64,000 nucleotides of DNA from Cytophagaceae bacterium (GTDB lineage: Bacteria; Bacteroidota; Bacteroidia; Cytophagales; Flexibacteraceae), in assembly GCA_027490155.1 (NCBI GenBank), contig JAIXYP010000009.1:62001-126000 (forward strand), read 5' to 3'. A model generated the notes under the pieces. That model did no database searches, had not been told where the DNA came from, and was given only the letters and a program-made list of their open reading frames with translations. Each line of letters begins with the position of its first letter. The stretch's first letter is position 1. Positions 49,061 through 64,000 of the stretch are shown here, in pieces. The position numbers and the translations under genes were made by a program.

Positions 49061-50947
49061 ATGCCCATTCTCAGCCGATATATCAAAACACTGACAGGCC
49101 GCATGCTTGCTGCCTTCTTGGTGTTATTTGTATTGGCAATCTTCATGTCAAAGGTGATCAGCTACTTGTCTAGCGAAAAGTCTACTGTCGAGGATGTCAC
49201 GATAATCAAGTCCATCATCAACTACCAGAAGGACCTGATTAAGGAGACTACCAACAGATTCGACAACACAAAAGCTGACTCTGCAGCCAATGCCAACCTA
49301 ACGCGCGAGAACCTAAAGCTCCTTAAGGTCAACCTCTCGATCTTCAAGGCCTATTTGCTGGACCGAAAAATTATCGCCAGCCTATCGGACTCAACGCGCA
49401 ACATCAACCACCAGCGGGTGATAATGTCTTGCGACAAGTTCATTAGTTTTATAGAGGACGAATTGCGGCGCAGCATACGGACAGACTCGGTGCTCCAAAT
49501 CCAGAAAGAGTACCTCACTCAACAGTCCACCTTGCTGAACCAAGCTTGTATGCGCTATGGCATCATGAGTTTTGGGAAGGTTAAACAAGCCGAAAGCCGC
49601 ATCATTGCGACACCCGATAGCACCTCTGCGCAAGCATTTGACCTTGCACTAGTCAACTTTGAGCTCGAGCTTGCCAAAAACGTACAGCTCACTGGTGTAC
49701 AACAACAGGACCTTGCCCTACAGTTTGATCTGTATAAACAACAGGCATATAGTATCAGCTATGGCGAAGTGGTACCTGTTTGGAAAAGCAATGACTTGTT
49801 TAGGGACCTCAAGACGCAGTATGCTGCCTTGCTCTACTCGCTTGATGCATTCGAGACCGAAGGAAGTTCATACGTCAACTTAATGATGTCCTCCACGAAC
49901 TTCTACACACTTTTAGCCATGAGCTTTACGCTGGTCTGTAGCCTTGGCATTAGTATGTACTACTCCCGTGCATTGACCTTACCAATTGGCAAACTGTCCA
50001 AAATGGTAGACAATATGGTCAGCAACAATTTTAGGCAAATCAGCCAACAGACCCTAAATACCGAGATCACGGAGTTGCAGATGCTTAATACCAGCGTCTT
50101 TATGATGGCCAACACGATCCAGGAAAACCTTGAGATGATTGCCAGAAAGAATGAGGACCTAGCTAATCTATACAACGAGACCCTCGATAACATCAATACG
50201 GCCCGGACGATCCAGCATTCTTTGATGCCGCCGATGACTGAGGTCCTGAAGGCGCTACCCGAAAGCTTTGTACTTAACAGACCTAAGGACATCGTGAGTG
50301 GTGACTTCTACTGGATCGATAACAACAGCGACGTACTTAAGATTGCTGTTGCGGACTGCACGGGGCATGGTGTAGCAGGAGCCTTTATGTCATTCGTAGG
50401 CCACTCCTTGCTGACTAGAATCACAGATGAGACCCCGATCTTTTTTGATGCAGCCTCAATCCTTGATCGCCTAAATGACGGTGTCAAACAAACACTTCGC
50501 CAAGCCGATGACGGATCGTTCACCCAAAACGGTATGGATATCAGCTTGGTCTGTATTGATTTCTTCAGAGGGGTGCTACACTTTGCTGGCGCAAACCAAA
50601 CACTTTACCTGATCCGCAATGGTGAGCTAAACACCATCAAGTCCAATAAGTTTAGCATAGGTGGGCCAACACATAAAGCGAACCTCGCCTTCACGAACCA
50701 CAAAGTGGCCTTCTTACCAGGGGACTCTATCTACCTCAGCTCAGACGGCTTTGCGGACCAAATCGGTGGACCAACAGGGGATGAGAAGTTCAAATCCTCA
50801 AGGCTCCGGACCTTATTCCAGAACATTAACAACCTACCGATGGAAGAACAAGGCAAAGTACTGTCCAAGGTTCTGGAGCAATGGCTGGGCCCAAACCAAC
50901 TGTTGGATGATGTTTTGGTGATAGGCTTTAAGGTACCTGACATTTAG
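49061..50947 (+). CDS. SiaA-like membrane PP2C/SpoIIE phosphatase
   Basis: 628 residues. Two membrane helices (about 14-36 and 281-303) flank a helical sensor domain of about 240 residues, a HAMP-like region follows (about 302-360, beginning SRALTLPIGKLSKMV), then a SpoIIE phosphatase (about 395-626): SGDFYW at 413-418 (Asp415), VADCTGHGVAGAFMS from 430 (Asp432), SSDGFADQ at 560-567 (Asp562) and DDV at 616-618. These are the metal-binding acids of PP2C, so it is predicted to be active. With the SiaB-like and SiaC-like genes just downstream, it is expected to dephosphorylate the SiaC-type protein, as SiaA does in Pseudomonas. Confidence 0.88.
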   Translation: MPILSRYIKTLTGRMLAAFLVLFVLAIFMSKVISYLSSEKSTVEDVTIIKSIINYQKDLIKETTNRFDNTKADSAANANLTRENLKLLKVNLSIFKAYLLDRKIIASLSDSTRNINHQRVIMSCDKFISFIEDELRRSIRTDSVLQIQKEYLTQQSTLLNQACMRYGIMSFGKVKQAESRIIATPDSTSAQAFDLALVNFELELAKNVQLTGVQQQDLALQFDLYKQQAYSISYGEVVPVWKSNDLFRDLKTQYAALLYSLDAFETEGSSYVNLMMSSTNFYTLLAMSFTLVCSLGISMYYSRALTLPIGKLSKMVDNMVSNNFRQISQQTLNTEITELQMLNTSVFMMANTIQENLEMIARKNEDLANLYNETLDNINTARTIQHSLMPPMTEVLKALPESFVLNRPKDIVSGDFYWIDNNSDVLKIAVADCTGHGVAGAFMSFVGHSLLTRITDETPIFFDAASILDRLNDGVKQTLRQADDGSFTQNGMDISLVCIDFFRGVLHFAGANQTLYLIRNGELNTIKSNKFSIGGPTHKANLAFTNHKVAFLPGDSIYLSSDGFADQIGGPTGDEKFKSSRLRTLFQNINNLPMEEQGKVLSKVLEQWLGPNQLLDDVLVIGFKVPDI

Positions 50948-51081
50948 ACAAAAAAACCCTTGGTAAAGTCATATTGACAGATAATCCCTTGACCAATAGG
51001 GGAAATTGACTGATTTAACCAGATATTCTGCTCCGGCCTTTGATTTTCTCGCTTTAGTATCTCAACTTTAGCAATCAGGTT

Positions 51082-51681
51082 ATGAAAACGACGACTACGA
51101 TGCCATCATCCTCCGCTGGGAGCGGTTTGCCTCAGGAAGCCATTACGCTTCAATTTAGCGGAAAGGCGACAACGATGCAGATCGACGCCCTATTAGATTT
51201 GCTGGAGAAGATGCTCGTGAACGAAGGGATTAACAATAGCCTAAGGCGAAGGATCTATAGCATCTCGATGGAGGCCCTCCAAAACCTTAACAATCATGCA
51301 CCAGACCAAGTGCTTGATGCTATCAATGAAAAAGCGATCGACCCAGCCTACATCAAGTTTTTGTTCGAGGGTTGTGACGGCAAGTTCCGGATCGAGACCA
51401 GCAATTATATATTGCTCAATAACATTGACCCTTTCATCCAGAAGTTAGACTACATCAACTCGCTAGACGATTTGGCCAAAAAAGAATACTACAACTATCT
51501 AATCAAGAACTTACCCTTTAGCGAAAAGGGCGGAGCTGGCCTAGGTCTTGTAGACATTGCTCGAAAAAGCAAGCAACCTATCAACTATCGTGTAGTAGGC
51601 ACAAATACCTACTACTCATTGGTGACCCTTTCTGTCGGCCTAGAGGCTGCCTCTGTGTCAGTGCCATTAGTGACTGGCTAG
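51082..51681 (+). CDS. SiaB family protein kinase
   Basis: 199 residues with a Ser/Thr-rich N-terminus, then a GHKL-like fold: EALQNLNNHA at 65-74 (N-box-like) and FSEKGGAGLGLVDIARKS at 146-163 (G-box-like), both characteristic of SiaB/DUF6272 kinases. In Pseudomonas SiaB phosphorylates SiaC on a threonine. The gene follows the phosphatase after 134 bases and precedes the SiaC-like gene by 45, a conserved order. Soluble. Family assignment is from motifs and context. Confidence 0.85.
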   Translation: MKTTTTMPSSSAGSGLPQEAITLQFSGKATTMQIDALLDLLEKMLVNEGINNSLRRRIYSISMEALQNLNNHAPDQVLDAINEKAIDPAYIKFLFEGCDGKFRIETSNYILLNNIDPFIQKLDYINSLDDLAKKEYYNYLIKNLPFSEKGGAGLGLVDIARKSKQPINYRVVGTNTYYSLVTLSVGLEAASVSVPLVTG

Positions 51682-51726
51682 AATTTTGTTAACTTTAAAA
51701 TCGCATATCAACCAAGGATTGAATCT

Positions 51727-52107
51727 ATGAACGTGTTGAAGATAGAAGCGCGACCCAAAACCCCTTACGTCCATTTTGATGGAGAGTCAGGGCGAATGGT
51801 CTTCCGCGGGATGTCCTGTGCCGAAAACTCGCCTGAGTTTTATCGGAGCATCCTGTCTTGGGTCGAGAACTATGCCCTGCGTCCTAGCCCACAGACCGTG
51901 ATCGAGATGCAATTCAAATACTTTAACACCAGCTCAGCCAAGTGTCTTCTTGATGTTTTGAACAGATTCCTTAGGGTTAGAGAAATGGGGAGCCTATTGG
52001 TAGTCAACTGGTTTTACGAAGACGATGACGAACAGATGCTAGAAGCGGGGGAACACCTGAGCGAAATCATCGGCTACCCTTTCCAATACACGATACTGCA
52101 GGCATAA
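51727..52107 (+). CDS. SiaC family regulatory phosphoprotein (DUF1987)
   Basis: 126 residues reading TPYVHFDGESGRMVFRG near the start, then EMQFKYFNTSSAKCLLD at 60-76 and VVNWFYEDDDEQMLEAGEHLSEI further on, all DUF1987 hallmarks. The threonine of FNTSS is at position 68, the same number as the phosphorylated Thr of Pseudomonas SiaC (recalled, not checked). In Pseudomonas unphosphorylated SiaC binds and activates the diguanylate cyclase SiaD; no GGDEF gene is present here, so the target is unknown. Last gene of the module, followed by a terminator. Confidence 0.88.
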   Translation: MNVLKIEARPKTPYVHFDGESGRMVFRGMSCAENSPEFYRSILSWVENYALRPSPQTVIEMQFKYFNTSSAKCLLDVLNRFLRVREMGSLLVVNWFYEDDDEQMLEAGEHLSEIIGYPFQYTILQA

Positions 52108-52187
52108 GTCACTTATTAGCCTAGCGACTGGCCCCACAAGCCTAGTCTTGGCAAATTAACAGACCTGCACAGCAACTTACCATTACC

Positions 52188-52229
52188 AAAAGAGCGCATC
52201 TTTACTGAGGCGCTCTTTTGTTTTTTTTG
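52188..52229 (+). terminator. Terminator of the Sia module
   Basis: 10-bp perfect stem AAAAGAGCGC / GCGCTCTTTT (52188-52197 with 52210-52219), then G and a run of T (52221-52228). About 80 bases past the SiaC-like stop. Confidence 0.9.
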
Positions 52230-61293: not shown

Positions 61294-62196
61294 ATGCGCC
61301 GTTCTACCTTCAGAACACTCATCGGACTTAGTGCCCTGACAGCCAGTGTTATGCTAACATCCTGTGGGTCAGAAAAAGCCGAAACTACCGAGACCACGGC
61401 ACCATCAGTTGCGCAACCAGACAGTATGCCCAAGGCGCCAAGTGCTGCTGATGACTTTTTTGCCAGGATCCCAACGGCTTCTGCTGTCCCAGCCTTGCTA
61501 GAGCGCTCGGGTGCTGAGTACAACAAAATGCTTGTCAACAAAGCCGGCAAAGCCACTACCTACAGTACTAGCGCTGCCAAAGCCGCTATCAACCTCGGGG
61601 TTTACGGTGCTGACATGGCTTACCTTTGTGCCTACGAAAAGAACAAAGAAGCCCAGGCTTACATTAAAGATATCCAGAAACTGGCCGAGCACCTTAATGC
61701 TAATGATGCATTTGGAGCCGCAATGTTAGAGCGGATGAAGAAAAACATGGAGAACAATGACTCCTTGATGGCCCTCACCGACGAAGGTATTAAGCTTGCC
61801 AACTCATTGCTAAAACAGAGCGAGCGCAAAGCCGATGCCTTCTTGATAGGTGCTGGTGGCTTTATTGAAGGTCTCTATCTAGCAACAGGTCTGGTCGAGA
61901 CTTTTCCGAAAGACATGAAACCAGCCGATCGTGATCTGGTCCTGATGCCCCTGACTCGTACCATCGTTGATCAGAAGAAGCCATTGACAGACCTAGTCGA
62001 AATCGGCAAAGATGTGCCTTCTGGCCCAGAAGTTGATGCCCTGAAGGTGGAACTAGCTGCTTTGCTGGACATCTACAACAAACTCAATATTGATGAGCAG
62101 ATCAAGGCCAACAAAGGCGAAATGATCCTAGGTGATGCCACACTACATGCAATCAGCGAAAAAGTCAAAACGACTAGAACTAGCTTGATCAAATAG
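61294..62196 (+). CDS. Conserved lipoprotein of unknown function
   Basis: 300 residues. Lipoprotein signal LTASVMLTSC (Cys24), a short Thr/Ala/Pro-rich spacer, then an all-helical domain with GVYGADMAYLCAYEKNKEAQAYIKDIQKLAEHL (about 107-139) and GAGGFIEGLYLATGLVETF (about 188-206). A Bacteroidota family without a defined role. Single-gene unit, followed by a terminator. Confidence 0.8.
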   Translation: MRRSTFRTLIGLSALTASVMLTSCGSEKAETTETTAPSVAQPDSMPKAPSAADDFFARIPTASAVPALLERSGAEYNKMLVNKAGKATTYSTSAAKAAINLGVYGADMAYLCAYEKNKEAQAYIKDIQKLAEHLNANDAFGAAMLERMKKNMENNDSLMALTDEGIKLANSLLKQSERKADAFLIGAGGFIEGLYLATGLVETFPKDMKPADRDLVLMPLTRTIVDQKKPLTDLVEIGKDVPSGPEVDALKVELAALLDIYNKLNIDEQIKANKGEMILGDATLHAISEKVKTTRTSLIK

Positions 62197-62271: not shown

Positions 62272-62409
62272 GTCATTTTATGATTTCTAGTTACTAATAT
62301 AGGGGTTGAGATTGGTCACCAAGGCAAGGCCAAACCTCATTCGACTTCACTTTGGGTACGATGGTAACGTAGGTTGATCATTGGCCCCCTTAGGCACCAC
62401 CAACCGCTG

Positions 62410-64000
62410 ATGAACGAACAAATCGTCCTAGCCATCGTGCGACTACTCGCGATGAGCACCAAGCTGGATGGCGTCTCGGCCATTGAGCTCACCTTTGTCC
62501 GTGCTTTTTTTACCGACCTGCTACCCCCTAGGGAAGTACCTCGATACATGGCCTTGTTCGAGCAATACCTAACAACAGCCTCGTCTGATGATGCTGCAAT
62601 CAAAGACCAGTGCGAAAGGTTAAATGCATCGCTGACCTATCCGCAAAAAGTCATTGCCCTGATTAGGTTGCTAGAAGTTGCAATTGCGGACCATAACTTA
62701 TCTACCGCTGAACAGGATTTTCTGGTTCGGGTCAGTAATGGCTTATTGTTACCTGCTACAACGCTAAGCTTATTGCTGCAGTTTGTTGTACCCCAAATGC
62801 TTTCATTGGATAAGGAAGAAGTCAGTAAAGAGCTTTTATACAAACAACATTGGCCCTTCAGCCATCCTAACTTGCTCTGCCTAAATGGTGGTCATACCGA
62901 CCCAGACAAAGGTTTCTACCATCACCATGATCTCGATGGTTGGTTATTGTTTGTGTCCATCCCGGAAACGGAGCTGCTGTTTTTGAGGCCAATAGATATA
63001 TCGGGAGACCTTACCCTATTCGGTGAGCATCTAGAGGTCAACCGAATCTATGCCTTAGCTCCTGGTAGTACAATCAGGAAACTGGGTATGCCCCCAATTT
63101 TCCAGAGTGATATTGTTGCTCACTTTAGGCCTATCCCCCAGGATCAAAAGATTAGACTTCATGCCGAGGGTCTCTGGTATCAGTTCGGGAACAAACATTG
63201 GGGCCTCAGAGATATCAACCTTGAAGCCGAAGGCGGACAACTGGTAGCAATTATGGGGGCTAGTGGTAGCGGTAAAAGCACCCTGCTAAGTGTCCTGAAC
63301 GGCAATACAGAGCCAAGCCAGGGGCATGTCTGGCTTAATGGACAAACTGACCTGCATTTTACCCAACAGCCAATACAAGGTCTGGTTGGGTACGTACCTC
63401 AAGATGACCTCCTAATAGAGGAGCTCACCGTTTGGGAAAACCTCAGGATGGCTGCAAGCCTATGTTTCAAAAACAAACCCATAAGCGAGCTGGATGAGCT
63501 CGTAACCATTACGCTCCAGAGACTTGGCTTATGGGACAGCCGAGACTTGCGGGTTGGCTCTGCCCTTGACAAAACCATTAGCGGTGGGCAACGTAAACGG
63601 GTCAATATTGGACTGGAGCTGCTACGCAAACCACAGCTGCTCTTTGTTGACGAACCAACAAGCGGTCTCAGCTCGCATGATAGCGAAAACATAGTTGACC
63701 TCCTACGCGAGCTTGCCCTAAGTGGCAACCTAGTGTTTGTTGTCATTCACCAGCCGAGTAGTACCATCTTCAAGATGTTCAACAAGCTATTGGTGCTGGA
63801 CACCGGAGGATACCAGCTTTTCTACGGCAATCCGCTCGAGGCTTTAGTATATTTCCGAACTCACGAAGACTTGCTTAACAAAAGCGATGCGGAGTGCCAC
63901 ATCTGCGGCAATGTCAATGCAGAAGAGATTTTCCAGATTATTGAGCGAAAAGAGGTGGACGAATATGGCTGGGAACAAAATCAACGCCGCCTATTGCCTC
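62410..64000 (+). CDS. ABCG-type transporter ATPase with N-terminal TerB-like domain, partial
   Basis: Open frame with no stop before the window end (530 residues visible). The first 130 residues read as an all-helical TerB-like unit: MSTKLDGVSAIELTFVRAFF and IADHNLSTAEQDFLVRV are two acidic helix-loop segments. After a linker comes an ABC ATPase with Walker A GASGSGKS at 283-290, signature SGGQRKRV from residue 391, Walker B FVDEPTSGL with Asp414-Glu415, and an H-loop IHQPSS. The wording DEPTSGLSS and HQPSSTIFKMF is that of the ABCG/WBC-type exporters, which normally carry a C-terminal ABC-2 membrane domain, expected downstream. ATG 62410 is chosen as the first reasonable start. Confidence 0.88.
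   Translation, partial: MNEQIVLAIVRLLAMSTKLDGVSAIELTFVRAFFTDLLPPREVPRYMALFEQYLTTASSDDAAIKDQCERLNASLTYPQKVIALIRLLEVAIADHNLSTAEQDFLVRVSNGLLLPATTLSLLLQFVVPQMLSLDKEEVSKELLYKQHWPFSHPNLLCLNGGHTDPDKGFYHHHDLDGWLLFVSIPETELLFLRPIDISGDLTLFGEHLEVNRIYALAPGSTIRKLGMPPIFQSDIVAHFRPIPQDQKIRLHAEGLWYQFGNKHWGLRDINLEAEGGQLVAIMGASGSGKSTLLSVLNGNTEPSQGHVWLNGQTDLHFTQQPIQGLVGYVPQDDLLIEELTVWENLRMAASLCFKNKPISELDELVTITLQRLGLWDSRDLRVGSALDKTISGGQRKRVNIGLELLRKPQLLFVDEPTSGLSSHDSENIVDLLRELALSGNLVFVVIHQPSSTIFKMFNKLLVLDTGGYQLFYGNPLEALVYFRTHEDLLNKSDAECHICGNVNAEEIFQIIERKEVDEYGWEQNQRRLLP

Follow-up and report, generated by a model that had tools for sequence, protein, structure and literature searches.

The 64,000-nucleotide window analysed here, from a Cytophagaceae bacterium (assembly GCA_027490155.1, contig JAIXYP010000009.1, positions 62,001 to 126,000, forward strand), carries a complete set of genes for SiaA, SiaB and SiaC. 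This set has been described as a cyclic diguanosine monophosphate (c-di-GMP) switch in one pathogen, and it is complete here without a detectable diguanylate cyclase. We propose, with a probability of about 0.72, that the locus encodes a genuine SiaABC partner switch with an output other than c-di-GMP, for which an ABC-2 exporter at the end of the window is the likeliest single candidate.

The SiaABC locus and its genome

The locus comprises four features, each followed by the analyses on which it rests:

49061 to 50947, plus strand: SiaA-like membrane SpoIIE/PP2C phosphatase, 628 amino acids (Pfam, NCBIfam, PDB alignment, hydropathy)
51082 to 51681, plus strand: SiaB-like GHKL protein kinase, 199 amino acids, with Glu64/Asn68 and a GGAGLGL box (Pfam, NCBIfam, PDB alignment)
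51727 to 52107, plus strand: SiaC (DUF1987) phosphoprotein, 126 amino acids, with Thr68 in YFNTSS (Pfam, NCBIfam, PDB alignment)
52187 to 52220, plus strand: hairpin of an intrinsic terminator, with a T run after it (folding against shuffles)

All three members of a SiaABC switch are present with the expected residues. The three open reading frames (ORFs) match the Pfam families SpoIIE (E-value 5.4e-16), DUF6272, the SiaB family (2.6e-22), and SiaC (4.3e-32). SiaB scores above the cut-off of the NCBIfam model SiaB_fam_kinase, and all three proteins fall far under the cut-offs of the equivalog models for SiaA, SiaB and SiaC and are therefore distant relatives of the Pseudomonas proteins. Among PDB sequences, SiaA matches the SiaA phosphatase 6k4e (2.2e-32), SiaB matches 6kko_A (SiaB, 3.3e-6), and SiaC matches the SiaC chains of 6kko/6kkp/7e6g and 6k4f (about 4e-15). 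Aligned by eye with these solved proteins, the metal-site acids, the N-box Glu/Asn, the GxGLGL box and the Y-x-N-T-S-S stretch all correspond: the SiaA acids lie in GDF (414-416), DCTGHG (from 432), SDG (561-563) and DD (616-617), the N-box Glu of SiaB is residue 64, and YFNTSS of SiaC begins at residue 65, which places the threonine at residue 68. The terminator folds at -20 kcal/mol (z -5.0, equalled by 0 of 200 shuffles) and was left out by a simple terminator pattern scan; the 134 bases that separate siaA from siaB fold unremarkably (z 0.12). An initial annotation of the window had proposed these families in this gene order on one strand, the intact metal acids, the SiaC site at threonine 68 and the closing terminator, and all of these held; of the two membrane helices that it gave the phosphatase, the first (residues 7-38) is clear by hydropathy and the second, near residue 281, is marginal.

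By family and residues, then, the locus is a SiaABC switch, in which phosphorylation of Thr68 and its reversal would proceed as in Pseudomonas. It shares with SiaABCD of Pseudomonas aeruginosa the protein families, Thr68, the active-site residues of kinase and phosphatase and the gene order SiaA-SiaB-SiaC. It differs in having no SiaD-like GGDEF gene, either adjoining or elsewhere in the genome, and in the stretch around the SiaD-contact residues 29/31, which reads GMSCAE in the window and GDSYPE in Pseudomonas. The logic of a phosphatase, a GHKL kinase and a small phosphoprotein is also that of the RsbU-RsbV-RsbW switches, from which the window switch is set apart by a SiaC that matches the SiaC model and not STAS; a role with a sigma factor is not indicated.

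The window genome (3.99 megabases in 69 contigs, rated 100% complete) gave no GGDEF match anywhere in a search that was positive in 8 of 14 control genomes. The absence is thus wider than the initial annotation, which had reported only the lack of a neighbouring cyclase, had claimed. A SiaD diguanylate cyclase under SiaC control, which the SiaABCD c-di-GMP pathway requires, is not found in this genome; the window switch is accordingly not a SiaABCD pathway, in so far as this means control of a diguanylate cyclase found in the genome, its target is probably not such a cyclase, and the SiaABC core apparently works independently of c-di-GMP. Control of c-di-GMP by the switch through a cyclase that escaped the draft assembly, where a gene could sit in a gap between contigs, is very improbable given the completeness rating and the positive controls, and three other SiaC-bearing genomes of the same taxonomic order (G049, G146 and G186) likewise have zero GGDEF matches. 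Class III cyclases, considered as another output, were dropped, as they had no match in the window genome and matched in 5 of the 14 control genomes. The earlier statement that the switch must have another target is hence supported as far as the cyclase goes and is reasonable.

A switch without a cyclase proved not to be unusual. In a sample of 395 genomes of the phylum, GGDEF was found in 203 and SiaC in 22, at 34 places. No GGDEF match was present in 6 of the 22, and a further 9 had a single match in which the GGDEF/GGEEF signature is missing (two strong matches in genome G390, used as a control, do show it); SiaC without a standard diguanylate cyclase is therefore common in the sample. The remaining 7 belong without exception to family f30 and have at least six matches each.

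A coiled-coil stalk beside SiaC in other lineages

In other families of the phylum, the neighbours of SiaC vary in their catalytic domains and have in common a short coiled-coil stalk. Four positions never vary in its alignment of 14 rows: a Leu, an Asp, a Gln and another Leu. The stalk opens GGDEF proteins, class III cyclases, histidine kinases and one SpoIIE protein, with domains supported by Pfam in the scanned examples and named by eye from sequence in the others; it also occurs as stand-alone proteins of 77-99 amino acids and in a protein of 158 amino acids (locus L054) with hydrophobic segments, judged by eye to be a membrane anchor. At three loci in three genomes (L055:5393-9463, L052:9827-13869 and L051:6679-9861) SiaC is followed by a short stand-alone stalk protein and then by a large AAA ATPase, the AAA domains having been scanned in L055 and assigned by similarity in L052 and L051.

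A profile built from the 14 rows, with no Pseudomonas sequence included, found its best PDB sequence match in SiaD of the SiaC-SiaD complex 7e6g (E 0.0028), and covered both SiaC-binding segments of SiaD, at RISDGFQ and RISDRYQ. In the published account of that complex, Thr68 of SiaC contacts Ser82 and Gln86 of SiaD, and adjoining residues contact Gln86 and Asp83 (PMC8457831); the contacted Asp and Gln of SiaD are the invariant Asp and Gln of the stalk. This suggests that SiaC recognises a portable coiled-coil stalk fixed to different outputs in many bacteria, and the same authors, in eLife, proposed that DUF1987 proteins modulate adjacent proteins (PMC8457831). Term searches of the open-access literature found no paper that treats SiaBC in Bacteroidota or the stalk in proteins other than SiaD; one article that names SiaABC together with a Bacteroid- word (PMC9239204) covers, in the parts available, the Pseudomonas pathway only.

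Strong stalk matches (E<1e-10) occur in 17 of the 395 phylum genomes, and 16 of these belong to the 22 SiaC-bearing ones (Fisher p 1e-22, uncorrected for relatedness). The seventeenth, G280, is the sole stalk genome without a SiaC match, and its stalk belongs to a class III cyclase (L209:6712-7635); a match in G111 (E 7e-4) was left out as a frame of 59 amino acids with a stop. There are 29 strong matches, 21 of which lie within 2.2 kilobases (kb) of SiaC, 19 of these within 250 bases, and SiaC and stalk counts are identical in 13 of the 16 genomes having both. Fourteen of the 29 are the profile rows themselves; the other 15 divide into 7 near SiaC and 8 elsewhere, the latter in 7 genomes, 6 of which have SiaC. 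Plasmids, whose proteobacterial loci took no part in building the profile, gave a further comparison. Twelve of 19 plasmid records with SiaC were fetched (10 from Proteobacteria, 2 from Bacteroidota), and in all 10 proteobacterial loci the gene after SiaC carries the stalk, with best E-values per record of 1.8e-9 to 4.5e-4 (up to 0.006 in a larger search set). These ten are not independent, as they include three from Paraburkholderia and one from Caballeronia, two from Azospirillum and two from Methylobacterium; and in 6 of them, whose stretches are unannotated, the gene after SiaC was read from frames. Both Azospirillum records have the stalk in two genes, the annotated histidine kinase and the diguanylate cyclase. 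The plasmids from Bacteroidota, one of Bernardetia and one of Persicobacter, have SiaBC and no stalk match, and their annotated features in the stretch include no exporter of the size of the one described below, whose profile was not run there.

Several observations weigh against the stalk reading itself or against its extension to the window. Singly, the two SiaD segments match the profile weakly, with independent E-values of 100 and 0.48, and the next matches after SiaD are designed coiled coils, at E 0.019. The window genome itself has no stalk match at E<=10 in a search positive in 16 other SiaC genomes. Strong matches are missing, too, from the SiaC-bearing G049, G146, G186, G045 and G109, the last of which also lacks the exporter; in the first four, weak matches fall in coiled coils of OmpA-like lipoproteins or in unrelated-looking frames, those of G049, G146 and G186 being OmpA-like by eye and taken as chance. 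We also examined the 80 loci most like the window SiaC, which are the best 80 of 550 confirmed relatives and hence skewed toward window-like SiaC, and found no stalk at E<=0.01 among their ORFs or at E<=0.05 in six frames.

It is nonetheless a fair possibility that SiaC of the window lineage acts on an unlinked stalk-bearing protein whose sequence has drifted beyond the reach of the profile. Neighbours of SiaC bear the stalk in Proteobacteria and in other families, stalk proteins distant from any SiaC do occur, as counted above, and a stalk-membrane protein lies directly downstream of SiaC in two genomes (G160, at L054, and G425, at L294) whose SiaC is of the GRSIPE type. That type prevails among window-like proteins: the stretch at positions 29/31 reads GRSIPE in 74 of 85 SiaC ORFs from the 80 loci and the window. 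The change at 29/31 was rejected as proof of a lost stalk interface because the GRSIPE-type SiaC of G160 and G425 still adjoin a stalk protein. Against a hidden stalk stand the empty searches of the window genome and of the 80 loci and the weakness of the matches in G049, G146, G186 and G045. On present evidence we hypothesize that the leading targets in the window organism are such an undetected stalk protein and the exporter.

The TerB/ABC-2 exporter as candidate output

The candidate output consists of two features at the end of the window:

61294 to 62196, plus strand: lipoprotein c3, inferred as part of the output, with homologues that adjoin the exporter in relatives
62374 to 64000 and past the window end, plus strand: TerB/FHA-like/ABC/ABC-2 exporter, inferred as part of the output

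As to genes consistently next to DUF1987 in Bacteroidota, which the initial annotation had thought worth seeking, the outcome was twofold: the stalk protein in several families, and this exporter in the 80 window-like loci. In these loci SiaB immediately precedes SiaC in 77 of the 79 with a called SiaC, a relative of SiaA is present in 9 of 38 with long flanks (searched with the window SiaA at 1e-5), and the most frequent neighbour of SiaC besides SiaB is a TerB-bearing ABC-2 exporter, found within 3.5 kb downstream of siaC in 32 of 60 loci with sufficient flank, always convergent. In G049, G146 and G186 the genes for SiaA, SiaB, SiaC and the exporter succeed one another on the same strand, 26-93 bases apart, the lipoprotein coming next. 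Strong exporter matches (E<1e-30) were found in six genomes of the phylum sample, five of them with SiaC (Fisher p 2e-6, uncorrected), and in sampled genomes of the window's taxonomic order the exporter is present in 4 of 4 with SiaC and 0 of 11 without; the profile used took 9 of its 11 rows from loci located via SiaC or near SiaC. On this evidence the exporter with its lipoprotein would be the most likely single output, with perhaps one chance in three.

Other findings count against this assignment. The window exporter lies 10 kb downstream of siaC with other genes in between, and in most of the relatives examined the two are not co-transcribed because they are convergent. In a class sample, moreover, the exporter, scored there without regard to SiaC, occurs in 185 of 385 genomes, which weakens the phylum-sample co-occurrence as a decisive link. 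Of 46 exporter regions fetched (40 picked for a broad range of families, plus 6 additional copies from G049, G146 and G186), only 14 contain SiaC, counted inside the fetched stretches, and six of the 46 stretches have less than 700 bases after the exporter; in 12 of the 14 SiaC is directly downstream and convergent, in one (G425) one gene lies between, and in one it is at 6.6 kb. The adjacency could be inherited gene order, with SiaC acting on something unlinked, for example an anti-sigma or STAS-type partner. This would agree with the exporter being widespread without an adjacent SiaC and with the many Bacteroidales loci flanked by apparent housekeeping genes, named by eye with no family scan. 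We consider it less likely than not, since the exporter stays near SiaC while the opposite flank of the locus changes. In the window's order, moreover, three genomes have it as the next gene after siaC, with the strand shared, and the 11 sampled genomes that lack SiaC gave no exporter match.

The domains of the exporter bear on its candidacy as well. Its full ORF encodes 1058 amino acids from a TTG start (L187:374-3550; first ATG at 62410) and matches TerB (2.4e-7), ABC_tran (3.6e-31) and ABC2_membrane (1.7e-20) in Pfam. The N-terminal region was predicted with a mean predicted local distance difference test score of 79; its TerB part is nearest to 2h5n (Z 9.7), and the listed structural matches of a second part are mostly FHA proteins (Z 5.6-6.8). 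FHA domains usually bind phosphothreonine, and a phosphothreonine-binding FHA-like region, as the model predicts it, would suit a Thr68 switch. The match is weak, with nothing at E<=0.001 in Foldseek and no PDB sequence match, and inspection by eye does not reveal the residues with which phosphothreonine is usually bound; both speak against that role. Rv1747 of Mycobacterium tuberculosis is an example of FHA-containing ABC exporters; the window protein resembles this type in having ABC and ABC-2 domains behind an FHA-like predicted N-terminal fold, and differs from it in having TerB, a weak FHA match and no apparent kinase link. Lipoprotein c3 has a lipobox-type cysteine (by eye) and an all-helical predicted fold with no PDB match at E<=0.001. 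Term searches of the open-access literature found nothing pertinent on TerB exporters or partner switches in Bacteroidetes.

Two further genomes show other arrangements around the exporter. The SiaC-less G347, the sixth phylum-sample genome with a strong exporter match, has a related exporter without Pfam TerB and a lipoprotein matching the c3 profile (7.7e-7), adjoined by a set of the RsbU-RsbV-RsbW type (STAS, HATPase_c_2, receiver-SpoIIE); the stretch (L210:1983-9704) encodes STAS, a receiver-SpoIIE phosphatase, a kinase like RsbW and two HATPase ORFs that resemble histidine kinases, and these genes are convergent with the lipoprotein and exporter. As its genes read, this is a different switch beside a similar output, a point in favour of the exporter. 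In G425 (L294:12796-14360), SiaB, SiaC and a stalk protein of 183 amino acids with hydrophobic C-terminal segments, a homologue of the 158-amino-acid protein of L054, adjoin the exporter genes, the stalk-membrane protein sitting between SiaC and the exporter. A protein of this kind could link SiaC to the exporter; and since G425 joins all three, the client in the window could be a missed stalk protein, a point against direct control of the exporter.

Elsewhere in the window genome there is a second TerB/ABC-2 exporter (L208:7071-10151, contig C30), which adjoins a methyltransferase gene and has no SiaB or SiaC within a 19-kb stretch. A second SiaC gene with its own SiaB directly upstream lies on another contig (L006:9168-10185, C50), the two pairs being 32.5% (SiaC) and 26.0% (SiaB) identical; the downstream neighbour encodes a ClpB-type AAA protein, and comparison with SiaA shows no SpoIIE gene within the 20-kb stretch. 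The genome encodes two SpoIIE proteins above the cut-off and a third that is weak. A protein that looks TPR-like by eye and carries SpoIIE at its C-terminus (L007:7451-9658, C64) is a possible phosphatase for the second pair, and two adjoining ORFs (L005:118-1986, C59), one with a weak SpoIIE match and with metal acids apparently missing by eye, are possibly pseudophosphatases.

Proposed mechanism and its meaning

In the mechanism that we propose, with chemistry taken over from Pseudomonas, SiaB would phosphorylate SiaC on Thr68, the membrane phosphatase SiaA would remove the phosphate on an envelope signal, and unphosphorylated SiaC would bind and switch an output protein. In the window organism that output would not be the synthesis of c-di-GMP, and its likeliest single candidate is the TerB/FHA-like ABC-2 exporter with its lipoprotein. 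A broader version, in which SiaC is a general adaptor, and not an activator of cyclases, that docks on the portable stalk and has in the window lineage been rewired to control of the exporter and lipoprotein, is doubtful as a whole.

The comparison yields a testable rule, that a short stalk marks the proteins that SiaC probably controls, and provides in the exporter a named test target where the stalk was not found. If the rule is true, a family of unknown function can be predicted to regulate cyclases, kinases and phosphatases; and if the reading of the exporter is true, a phosphothreonine switch would drive export directly, with no second messenger.

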